This document shows positions 52,287 to 58,228 of a stretch of 58,776 nt of DNA, in pieces (the stretch's first letter is position 1; the number at the start of each line of letters is the position of its first letter). The position numbers and the translations under genes were made by a program. Below the pieces are notes generated by a model, which was given only the letters and a program-made list of their open reading frames with translations, was not told the DNA's origin and did not search any database. Source of the stretch: Gemmatimonadota bacterium (GTDB lineage: Bacteria > Gemmatimonadota > Gemmatimonadetes > Longimicrobiales > Gaopeijiaceae); assembly GCA_022823365.1 (NCBI GenBank), contig JAJDXG010000033.1:1-58776 (forward strand), given 5' to 3'.

Positions 52287-52425
52287 CCCGCCGGGCGCGA
52301 GCCTCGAAGCCGAACCGGGTGCACTGGTAGACTTCATCCGCTCGTAGCGTCGTCCGGCACCCTCAGCACGCGTGGCGGCTTCGTCGGGGTCGCCCAGCAT
52401 CGCCCAGAACTCGGCGGGGATGTCG

Positions 52426-52756
52426 CTAGGAAAGCGCCAGGAACGCTGCCATCTGGTCGGCTCCGAAGGCAAGGACCTGGGTCAGGTTGGATCGCAGGGC
52501 CTCTTCGATCGGCCGTAGTGCAGTTGCCCCGCCGAATCCAGATGACCTTGGGAGGCGAACCCCTGAGGAAGCTCGCCTGGTGGAAGTCCGAGTCCTTGGA
52601 GACGATGGTTAGCCCGTGATCGCGGGCATAATCCCAGATCGCGGCGTCGGTGGCCCGGGACAATCCGGCGTCTCGAACGTGGACGGACTCCGGAAACACG
52701 TCCGATAGCCCAGCGACGAGACGCGGGGACAGGTTCTCGTCGAAGAGGAGCTTCAC
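52426..52756 (-). pseudogene. DUF5615 PIN-like toxin, frameshifted
   Basis: The first ~82 residues are a clear DUF5615/PIN-like toxin (MKLLFDENLSPRLVAGL, HVRDAGLSRATDAAIWDYA, TIVSKDSDFHQASFL, VIWIRRGNCTTA). Near 52510 the frame breaks. The expected C-terminus continues one frame over as IEEALRSNLTQVLAFGADQM and AAFLALS, ending at the TAG 52428-52426. A one-base gain or two-base loss explains it. Unrepaired, the frame runs on into unrelated sequence. The toxin is probably inactive, although the N-terminal acidic residues survive. Confidence 0.75.
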
Positions 52757-52980
52757 CTGGGCGGAAGCGAGACGAGCCTTCGCTCCCGCTCCGCCGCAAA
52801 CGTCAGTGCCGCGCGGATGTCTTCGCGCTCCAGGTCCGGGAAGTCCTCCAGGATTTCCCCTTCCGTCATCCCGGACGCCAGGTACTCAAGGACATCGTAC
52901 ACCGTGATCCTGAGCCCGCGAATGCACGGCTTCCCGCCCCTTTTTTCCGGCTCGAGGGTGATGCGATCCAGATGGTTCAT
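52753..52980 (-). CDS. DUF433-domain antitoxin
   Basis: A 75-aa DUF433 protein: ITLEPEKRGGKPCIRGLRITVYDVLEYLASGM and EDFPDLEREDIRAAL. DUF433 proteins are the antitoxin partners of DUF5615 PIN-like toxins and bind DNA through a helix-turn-helix. It overlaps the toxin start by ATGA. The antitoxin is intact while the toxin is frameshifted. Confidence 0.88.
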   Translation of the reverse strand: MNHLDRITLEPEKRGGKPCIRGLRITVYDVLEYLASGMTEGEILEDFPDLEREDIRAALTFAAERERRLVSLPPR

Positions 52981-55622: not shown

Positions 55623-56253
55623 CGCTTCCAGCCGCCTTGGTGAGTCGGCCCATCTTCTACCCTGCGGACGGCCCGACCCCGCAGGAGACCACGCCCCCCT
55701 TTGACCCTGCCGTAACGGCGGATCGCCTGAGGTCTGAATCGCGGCAGAAAATCGGCTAACTACTTACAGGGCTGCACGATCTGCGTTTCCTGCCGTTGGA
55801 CTGGACCCTACTGGACCGTGCCGCGAAAGCGGGAAAAACGGACCGGAATGGCGGGACTCCCAAAACCGTTCCGGCTGCCTTCTTGAGCGGACCCAAGGGA
55901 GTCCGGGGCTCACTTTCAATCAGCCTGTCCAACAAGGTGTGCCTCCGTCCCGGTTTCGCGGGAGTTTGGAGTCCCACACCTCACCTTGCCCCGCACCCGC
56001 CGAGTTGCGGAGCCCTCGCGTTGGTGATCGTCGGCTCAACAGCCAACCCGCCGCCAGTGTTGGCGATCTCGTCTGGGTCTCAGACGATTTGGAAGCAGGC
56101 AGATCGCAAAAGCATCCTCCCCGCACCCTCAGTACAACCTCGACGTAACTCTTTCATTGACAATGTGATAGGATACGCATACGTTAGCCCGCCTGGTTGG
56201 GCGAAGGGAGGACGAGCCTCCCGGCCCGAGAACATCAACAAGGGGAGGGAACC
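55623..56253. other. gene-free region upstream of the cysteine-rich peptide operon
   Basis: About 630 nt without a convincing gene; the open frames have poor composition. GGGACTCCC near 55855 and GGAGTCCC near 55970 form a loose inverted repeat. A promoter for the next gene lies at 56157-56185. Confidence 0.5.
56157..56185 (+). promoter_or_regulatory. promoter of the cysteine-rich peptide operon
   Basis: TTGACA (56157-56162, consensus) and, after 17 nt, TACGTT (56180-56185). It lies about 70 nt before the peptide ATG; the local sequence is AT-richer than its surroundings. The -10 is modest. Confidence 0.5.
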
Positions 56254-56469
56254 ATGAACGATGCCATCCGCAAACTGCTCAGGGGAGCCGCGCTCGCGCT
56301 GGCCGTCTTCGTCGGCGCAGGCATGATGACGGCCACCCCGGCAAGCGCCAGCAGCGAATGTAGTATCACGGTCGGCTGGGACAACGGCTATTTCTACTTT
56401 TGTGAGCTCTGCGTCAGTGACGACTCGTGCGAGTACGAGTGCACGACGGGGCATGAAGGCAGTTGCTAA
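56254..56469 (+). CDS. secreted six-cysteine microprotein precursor
   Basis: The precursor has 71 aa with AGGGGAGGG as ribosome-binding site. A Sec signal (LLRGAALALAVFVGAGMM, likely cut after ASA at about 33) leaves a mature peptide of about 39 residues with cysteines at 36, 50, 53, 59, 63 and 71, the last being the C-terminal residue. The mature part is acidic and aromatic (GWDNGYFYFCELC). I recognise no family. Its stop overlaps the start of the propeller gene by 7 nt, and a DsbA-like gene follows, which suggests three disulfides formed by a dedicated oxidase. Alternatives are a metal-binding or thioether-modified peptide. Confidence 0.72.
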   Translation: MNDAIRKLLRGAALALAVFVGAGMMTATPASASSECSITVGWDNGYFYFCELCVSDDSCEYECTTGHEGSC

Positions 56470-57596
56470 AACCCACGTGGGTGCTAGTCTCGGCGCTGGC
56501 ATGTGCGATGCCGGCGATGGCCCAGGGCGCTCCGAGTTCTTGCGGGGTGCCAACAGCATCCGAGACACGGTGGCTGGCCGAGTCGTACGCCGAGACCAGC
56601 ACCTACGGTCGTAGTAGCGTCGACGAGTGGATCGGGTCTTACGGCGCGCTCACGGCTGTGGGCGAGAGCCTGTTCCTCTACGACCAATCGCGAACGCGCA
56701 TCGTCCATCTTTCGGGAGAGCTCGAGGAACGGCACGCGTTCGGCCGGCAAGGGGATGGTCCTGGCGAGTTCGCCCGTCCGCGGGCTATCCCATGGGTGAG
56801 CGATGCGTCCGAGGGGCACTTGGATTTCGACGGGCGGCAGTTAGTAATCTACGACCGCAACGACTTAACGTTCTTCGATACCGAGGGCGAGTACCTCTGG
56901 TCTGCTCTGTTGCCCGGCTTCGGCTTCAACCTCGGCCGGCGCGGTGTTGTGTTCGTGAGCCCGGTGTCCGAGGACGCGGCGGTCTACGGCGCGGACTTGC
57001 TGGGCACTGGCCCGCGTCGCCTTGAGCTCCGGACCGTGCGGCGCTCGGACCGGAACCGCAGCGAAATGCTCTGGGAGCGGGCCGTGCCGACGCGCAGCCG
57101 CGAGGCGCGCGAGGCGGGCCGAGCGCAGCTACACAGCAGGCAGGCAAGGTCTTATTGGGCGCGGCACCAAGGCTGCATCGTCGTCTCGGATGGCGGTGGC
57201 GGATTCCTTTGGGTCGTGAACCTGGAGACGCTGGAGACGGACTCGATCGCTCTGCCCGAGTGGGATGTGCCCGATTTCGGGGATGTACGCTTCGATCGCT
57301 CTGGCATCAACATCGCCGGGCGCGTGATGGGCGACACGAATCCTCAGCCGCCGGACCTGCTCTGGCGCTGGAGAGGGCTGATCGTAGATCCGGACGGCCA
57401 TGCGTGGGTGCGCGCGTGGACGCAGGCCCGAGACGAGTTCGAGGTCTTCGTCGTCTCGCTGGCGTCCGGTGAGGCGCGACAGCTGAGTCTACCGGGCTTC
57501 CCTACGGCCTTCGGCCCGCCGGGCGTGTTCTACACGGTGCTACAAACGGCTGATGAAGAGCACTACATCGGGAGGCTCGAAGCGGAGCGGAGATGA
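56463..57596 (+). CDS. secreted six-bladed beta-propeller-like protein
   Basis: The 377-aa exported protein has a signal (VLVSALACAMPAMAQG) and propeller features: SYGALTAVGESLFLYDQSRTRIVHL, FGRQGDGPGEF, RQLVIYDRNDLTFFDTEG, LIVDPDGHAWVRAW, FEVFVVSLASGE. The GRQGDGPGEF turn is typical of six-bladed propellers in Bacteroidota- and Gemmatimonadota-type genomes. The start is TTG at 56463 within the end of the peptide gene; a GTG six codons in is possible. It overlaps the thioredoxin gene by ATGA. A binding or maturation partner of the peptide is the attractive reading. Confidence 0.75.
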   Translation: MLKPTWVLVSALACAMPAMAQGAPSSCGVPTASETRWLAESYAETSTYGRSSVDEWIGSYGALTAVGESLFLYDQSRTRIVHLSGELEERHAFGRQGDGPGEFARPRAIPWVSDASEGHLDFDGRQLVIYDRNDLTFFDTEGEYLWSALLPGFGFNLGRRGVVFVSPVSEDAAVYGADLLGTGPRRLELRTVRRSDRNRSEMLWERAVPTRSREAREAGRAQLHSRQARSYWARHQGCIVVSDGGGGFLWVVNLETLETDSIALPEWDVPDFGDVRFDRSGINIAGRVMGDTNPQPPDLLWRWRGLIVDPDGHAWVRAWTQARDEFEVFVVSLASGEARQLSLPGFPTAFGPPGVFYTVLQTADEEHYIGRLEAERR

Positions 57597-58228
57597 TGAA
57601 AAAGAGAAGAGACATCCTGAGCATGTCCGTGAACATCGCGGTACTGCTCTTCCTCGGGTACGCGGTGCTGGGTCCAAGTGGGCCGCTACGGACGGCGGTC
57701 CAAGGCTACTTCGCGGAGCGGGACGCGCGGAGCGCCGCCGAGGACGCGCTCGGGCAGCTGGCGTCAAACGAGGGACTGCCGACGCTCATCGAGTTCACCG
57801 ACTTCCAGTGCCCGTACTGCCGCGACATGCACGATGTCCTGAAGCAGGGCGTGGCGGAGGGTAAGTTCGAGCATGTGACCATGCACTTCCCGCTCGATCG
57901 CATCCACCCTCTCGCGAGGCCGGCCGCAAAGGCCAGCCTTTGCGCCGAGGCGCAAGCCAGCGCAACCGAGATGAACAGCCTTCTGATGTCCACGAGCGAA
58001 TGGATGGACGAGCCCGATTGGGTTCAACTCGCACGCGACGCGCGAGTCCCCGACCTCGCGCAGTACGAGAAGTGCCTAGTGGCGCCCAGCACCGAGCAGG
58101 AGCTCGAGCGGCACGGAACCATCGCGGGCAACATCGGCATCAGGGCAACTCCGACCTTCGTGTCACACGGCGGCGTCCGCAGTGGCGTCGCCACCCTGGA
58201 CGAACTCGTGGAACTAACGAAGAAGTAA
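57593..58228 (+). CDS. membrane-anchored DsbA-like thiol oxidoreductase
   Basis: The 211-aa protein has one N-terminal membrane helix (about 12-30) and a DsbA/DsbG-type thioredoxin fold. The active site is CPYC at residues 73-76 (IEFTDFQCPYC), the helical insertion carries HFPLDRIHPLARPAAKAS, and the cis-proline loop is IRATPTFV. Two further cysteines (CAEAQ, EKCLV) lie in the insertion, as in many DsbA-like proteins. It would oxidise or isomerise disulfides outside the membrane. Last gene of the three-gene operon with the six-cysteine peptide. Confidence 0.9.
   Translation: MMKKRRDILSMSVNIAVLLFLGYAVLGPSGPLRTAVQGYFAERDARSAAEDALGQLASNEGLPTLIEFTDFQCPYCRDMHDVLKQGVAEGKFEHVTMHFPLDRIHPLARPAAKASLCAEAQASATEMNSLLMSTSEWMDEPDWVQLARDARVPDLAQYEKCLVAPSTEQELERHGTIAGNIGIRATPTFVSHGGVRSGVATLDELVELTKK

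Follow-up and report, generated by a model that had tools for sequence, protein, structure and literature searches.

What purpose is served by three overlapping genes that encode a small cysteine-rich precursor, a secreted propeller protein and a membrane-anchored thioredoxin-like enzyme? The genes lie in a 58,776-nucleotide stretch of Gemmatimonadota DNA, here called the window (contig JAJDXG010000033.1 of assembly GCA_022823365.1, positions 1 to 58,776, forward strand). We consider it somewhat probable that they form one operon of a Gemmatimonadota-wide family, each producing a Sec-exported, cystine-stabilised miniprotein and a dedicated membrane-anchored DsbA, the miniprotein being bound by a propeller and probably acting in recognition. 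This reading builds on gene order and overlaps, conserved even-numbered cysteines, linkage to one DsbA subfamily, and adjacency or fusion of the propeller. The features concerned are:

56157-56162, + strand: TTGACA, a -35-like hexamer lacking a good -10
56242-56249, + strand: Shine-Dalgarno-like GGGGAGGG, 5' of the peptide ATG
56254-56469, + strand: gene for the putative cystine-rich miniprotein precursor, 71 aa, open reading frame seen in the sequence
~56254-56352, + strand: predicted signal peptide of the precursor, Sec-type, end ASA/S
~56353-56466, + strand: mature miniprotein, six cysteines
56463-57596, + strand: secreted propeller gene, 377 aa, TTG start
57593-58228, + strand: membrane-anchored DsbA-like gene, 211 aa
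57809-57820, + strand: CPYC active-site motif of the DsbA-like protein, codons 73-76

The three genes and their products

All three open reading frames (ORFs) are exactly where the initial annotation placed them, tightly packed, the propeller gene overlapping the peptide gene by 7 nt and the DsbA-like gene overlapping the propeller gene by 4 nt (ATGA). The precursor is likewise as described there, a typical Sec signal ending in ASA being followed by a mature part of about 38 residues with six cysteines, SSECSITVGWDNGYFYFCELCVSDDSCEYECTTGHEGSC. The cysteine framework is C-x13-C-x2-C-x5-C-x3-C-x7-C, with a CxxC, and there is only one tryptophan in the peptide. No Pfam or NCBIfam model matches the peptide, the NVEALA model (PF14055) among those in the Pfam search, and a peptide profile found nothing meaningful in PDB sequences. 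The general framework C-xn-C-x2-C-xn-C-x3/4-C-xn-C is common to nine peptides from several lineages, and their alignment has five invariant cysteines, the sixth being missing in one member.

The membrane-anchored CPYC thioredoxin is borne out in each part: the third protein belongs to the Thioredoxin_4/DSBA group (Thioredoxin_4, PF13462, 1.4e-14 and 55.1 bits against a cut-off of 23.2; DSBA 37 bits against 25.6), with CPYC at residues 73-76 behind an N-terminal transmembrane anchor. C73, C76 and the Thr-Pro at 186-187 of the cis-Pro loop are invariant in the alignment, as is a second cysteine pair, C117/C161. Relatives of the window enzyme are of the DsbA/BdbD/ScsC type, including 3gyk, and the PedC/BrcD model TIGR01295 gives only 14.1 bits against a cut-off of 120. 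The usual electron acceptor of DsbA is DsbB, which is encoded in the same genome; some other relatives have VKOR.

The second protein is, on its predicted structure, a secreted NHL-type six-bladed β-propeller. Its AlphaFold2 model (pLDDT 83, pTM 0.84) has Brat/TRIM NHL domains as top Foldseek matches (E ~1e-11, though TMq is only ~0.5), and NHL-type and other propellers make up its top 50 hits by fold, with no methylamine dehydrogenase (MADH) heavy chain among them. Pfam and NCBIfam have no model that matches the window propeller itself; two members of its family exceed Pfam cut-offs, L107 for TolB_like (1e-29) and L078 for DUF5128. Conservation is confined to a GxGPGE turn and structural residues, with no polar catalytic cluster, no catalytic His/Asp cluster and no conserved histidine in 36 aligned propellers. 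Peptidyl-hydroxyglycine amidating lyase, an NHL-type enzyme, was considered and rejected because these propellers have no conserved metal-binding histidine cluster. About ten consecutive propeller genes are found at L045 5436-19169 (G061) and seven or more at L046 2809-12906 (G034), both without Cys-rich peptides. A close propeller orthologue in the single-contig genome G034 (L037 8215-9311) is split over two frames; it may be a pseudogene, or the split may come from an error in sequencing.

A check for the trio and its cysteines in relatives, which the initial annotation had proposed, found the trio complete in genome G224 and partial in G002, with the cysteine framework kept. In G224, of another genus in the same family, the locus (L295) encodes a DsbA 65% and a propeller 56% identical to those of the window; in G002, of the window's genus, a peptide of the same framework is followed by a propeller cut by the contig end. 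The window peptide is about 41-43% identical to that of G224 and G002 (41% in the tblastn alignment with G002). The G224 and G002 peptides are themselves identical, in loci 99% identical over 1,650 bp, and such identity between genera points to recent transfer. G027 (L039) also has a trio in this gene order, more distantly related. One contig titled Gammaproteobacteria (JAPPHB010000102.1, L141) has the gene content of a contig of G009, from the window's genus, and its title is probably a mislabel.

Transcription signals are less clear. The consensus-like -35 is present as TTGACA at 56157-56162, but the promoter is not convincing, since a promoter scan of the stretch found no matching -10 and the stretch around the hexamer is not conserved in the orthologous G224 locus. 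An Rfam search of the locus gave no match; nor did PADLOC, on which ground a defence system was rejected. Further upstream, a dispersed repeat of ~130-150 bp (55707-55860) is matched 13 times in its own genome, in several cases at the end of a contig, and a copy is found upstream of the G002/G224 operon orthologue as well; it is possibly a mobile or recombination element. On the minus strand at 52334-52980, two adjoining small ORFs resemble by eye a candidate DUF433/DUF5615 toxin-antitoxin-type pair.

Linkage of miniprotein and DsbA genes across the phylum

Small secreted Cys-rich ORFs recur in the neighbourhoods of DsbA relatives. They were scanned for as secreted small ORFs with four cysteines, a definition that also catches false ORFs inside other genes (L104 'MYSWERS' and L305 among them). 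Under a strict filter, with a background of 3 Cys-rich secreted ORFs per 532 kb of strand, a peptide gene lies upstream on the same strand for 39 of 65 DsbA genes and on the opposite strand for none. As this set had contributed to the profile definition, 60 further loci were fetched, picked phylum-wide solely by DsbA profile score. In this independent set a Cys-rich secreted ORF is present on the same strand in 49/60 and on the opposite strand in 8/60 (p=2e-14). Among DsbA genes scoring at least 180, a linked peptide is found for 88 of 103; contig ends truncate at least four of the others. The initial annotation had asked whether genes of this type mostly occur without the peptide; the reverse is true of both sets.

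In total there are 89 peptide-DsbA loci in at least 61 genomes of five families, and those records that carry names assign the group to Gemmatimonadota (Longimicrobiales, Gemmatimonadaceae). In a tree of 203 DsbAs the peptide-linked ones group together strongly: 16 changes of the peptide label suffice, where shuffled labels require 68. No linked peptide was found for DsbA relatives of other phyla, the few matches being Gemmatimonadota records or chance ORFs, nor any linked Cys-rich peptide for canonical DsbA relatives in the same genomes. This control set, of DsbAs mostly from other phyla, was retrieved by a contig profile search with alignment A1; a profile search of the genome contigs with the window DsbA alone gave no match.

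A propeller is adjacent or fused in 56 of the 89 loci; at L087, L094, L106, L112 and L115 one ORF encodes DsbA and propeller as a fusion. Loci lacking it, mainly of family f3, have as neighbours a PDZ protein and a large CarboxypepD_reg/outer-membrane barrel, and in six loci a MacB/FtsX permease follows the DsbA gene. The three-gene unit first proposed is narrowed: its core is the pair of peptide and DsbA, to which the propeller is an optional addition.

Beyond close relatives the peptides share no sequence similarity, having only their architecture in common, and the 103 collected show 78 exact cysteine spacings. An even number of cysteines is found in 97 of the 103; if only mutually dissimilar peptides are counted, the figure is 73 of 79 (p=5e-16). 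Given that the peptides were not selected for cysteine parity, two false ORFs having been removed before the test, the even count is statistical evidence for pairing and points to cysteines joined in disulfides. With a mean charge of -4.4 the mature parts are acidic; they contain 13% cysteine and 1.1% histidine, and across frameworks share no conserved residue other than cysteine. In each of two ortholog groups every cysteine is kept, omega for the mature part is 0.46 and 0.76 against 0.30 and 0.27 for DsbA, and the signal peptide hardly varies, synonymous sites included (dS 0.10-0.14 against 0.40-0.51). In the twin-CX3C peptides (L084, L085, L089, L090, L092, L257, L261, L267) the signal dS is 0.10 and the mature dS 0.51, which suggests that the 5' end is under constraint or has recombined. 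Tandem peptide paralogues occur at L082, L083, L086, L254 and L292.

A proposed role and its alternatives

We suggest that the precursor would be exported by Sec and cleaved, that the anchored CPYC enzyme would close the disulfides of the miniprotein in the periplasm, and that the genome's DsbB would recharge this enzyme. The propeller may bind the folded miniprotein or hold it for oxidation, by analogy with SOQ1, a thioredoxin-NHL protein in which protein interaction is the role described for the NHL domain (PMC10173003). The mature miniprotein might be used for specific recognition outside the cytoplasm, in competition, signalling or surface display; fast evolution around fixed cysteines, acidity, and change of framework between lineages make recognition likelier than catalysis or metal storage. 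Sec would leave the peptide in the periplasm of these diderm cells, and release, if any, would need a further route. The initial annotation erred in holding that no export transporter is needed: in a diderm phylum Sec reaches the periplasm only, and genes for outer-membrane barrels or MacB-type permeases adjoin the operon in related loci.

Several observations weigh against this reading. The window operon itself does not encode an outer-membrane export route, and AlphaFold2 predicts the peptide with a confidence too low for use (pLDDT 62). The propeller is absent from 33 of the 89 peptide loci, and its family extends far beyond the peptide system, with tandem arrays that lack peptides in L045 and L046; in G061 and G034, which encode its closest homologues, neither a peptide nor a DsbA gene lies beside them. 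A bolder view can be offered only tentatively, that these are framework-switching secreted cystine miniproteins found across the phylum and comparable to conotoxins in the way they evolve (near-frozen signal, fixed cysteines and variable loops), each with its own oxidase and a swappable partner, forming a new class of intercellular effector or signal whose specificity the propeller would read or carry. The swappable partner would be a propeller, an outer-membrane barrel or a permease, a suggestion equally tentative.

Other explanations account for parts of these data. It is rather unlikely, but deserves weight, that the product is a secreted antagonistic, bacteriocin-like peptide with its own disulfide enzyme, comparable to pediocin/PedC or sublancin/Bdb, the propeller or other neighbours serving self-protection or release. 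Such a role would fit the fast-evolving mature part behind its near-frozen signal, the tandem paralogues, the recent inter-genus transfer indicated by the 99% nucleotide identity over 1,650 bp, and the MacB-type permease or outer-membrane barrel that adjoins some loci. However, the mature peptides are acidic, unlike most membrane-active bacteriocins, no immunity gene is recognisable, and neither PADLOC nor bacteriocin models match. We think it unlikely that the miniprotein instead remains attached to the propeller within the periplasm, serving as its small structural or catalytic subunit in the manner of MADH, with the DsbA-like protein as a MauD-like maturase, even though a cystine-rich small chain, a propeller and a thioredoxin-fold maturase are all present, DsbA-propeller fusions exist, and MauE has been linked to the disulfides that form in the small subunit (PMC7794033). 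One third of the peptide loci have no propeller, no residue other than cysteine is conserved across frameworks, and the best 50 propeller fold matches do not include the MADH heavy chain. Moreover the cofactor tryptophan tryptophylquinone requires two tryptophans, and the window peptide has one.

A thiol-metal binder or redox sensor, in which the cysteines would bind metal or shuttle electrons and the DsbA-like protein would be a reductase, appears very improbable. The cysteine content of the mature part and the CxxC of the window peptide would suit it, but the even cysteine count in 73 of 79 peptides and the scarcity of histidine fit disulfides better, the enzyme is of the DsbA/BdbD/ScsC type in a genome with DsbB, and export leads to an oxidising periplasm. 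The metal-binding role raised by the initial annotation is for the same parity and histidine content less likely than a cystine-rich miniprotein, and a metallothionein-like binder was rejected on these grounds. Finally, peptides of differing frameworks lack mutual sequence homology, as would a chance neighbourhood of unrelated secreted proteins. That explanation is contradicted by the strand-controlled linkage in the unbiased set, and by the absence of linkage in other phyla and for canonical DsbAs of the same genomes, and we regard its probability as negligible.

Relation to known systems and significance

The closest known parallel to the Gemmatimonadota operons is in the NVEALA (PF14055)/TolB_like (PF15869)/DUF5128 (PF17170) loci of Bacteroidota. 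In Phocaeicola massiliensis (OY726023.1, L316 17175-24815) four NVEALA peptides, one with a seven-cysteine tail, are interleaved with TolB_like, DUF5128 and DUF4221 propeller proteins and accompanied by a DUF1573 lipoprotein; on our reading the CxxC stretch at its N-terminus resembles thioredoxin, although Pfam reports only DUF1573. Both systems have small peptides with a conserved leader and a variable, partly Cys-rich tail beside six-bladed propellers and a CxxC protein, and some Gemmatimonadota propellers reach the Pfam models of the Bacteroidota ones (TolB_like in L107, DUF5128 in L078), the window propeller itself matching neither, but the enzyme is a membrane-anchored DsbA-like protein here and the DUF1573 lipoprotein there. 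The NVEALA model matches none of 20 Gemmatimonadota relatives of the peptide, and the likeness is therefore a parallel and not membership.

PedC/BrcD and sublancin bacteriocin operons likewise join a secreted Cys peptide to an operon-encoded thiol oxidoreductase, the sublancin operon encoding the dedicated disulfide enzymes BdbA and BdbB. They differ in using a double-glycine leader and ABC exporter where a Sec signal is found here, and the Gemmatimonadota system has acidic peptides, a propeller partner and an enzyme below the TIGR01295 cut-off. SOQ1 and NHLRC2 couple a thioredoxin fold to an NHL six-bladed propeller, as do the fusions described here, but the present system has a DsbA-like thioredoxin subfamily, a variable Cys-rich miniprotein partner and a bacterial operon. 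MADH (MauA/MauB/MauD/MauE) also combines a Cys-rich small chain, a propeller and a thioredoxin-like maturase; the operon differs in matching no MADH model or Pfam component, in its six-bladed NHL type and in the single tryptophan of its peptide. MauE/MauD homologues are reported near candidate ribosomally synthesised and post-translationally modified peptides in Streptomyces (PMC7794033). In open-licence literature on NVEALA, on Cys-rich peptides with propellers and on Longimicrobium precursor peptides we found no description of the system, which has an unusually broad and diverse peptide repertoire.

Gemmatimonadota are widespread and almost uncultured, and their secreted peptide chemistry is little known. 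The DsbA subfamily provides a search handle for more than 70 dissimilar cystine miniproteins, and the dedicated DsbA would be a ready co-expression partner for making correctly folded disulfide miniproteins. The system also gives a way of approaching by experiment the NVEALA-propeller loci of gut Bacteroidota, which are no better explained.
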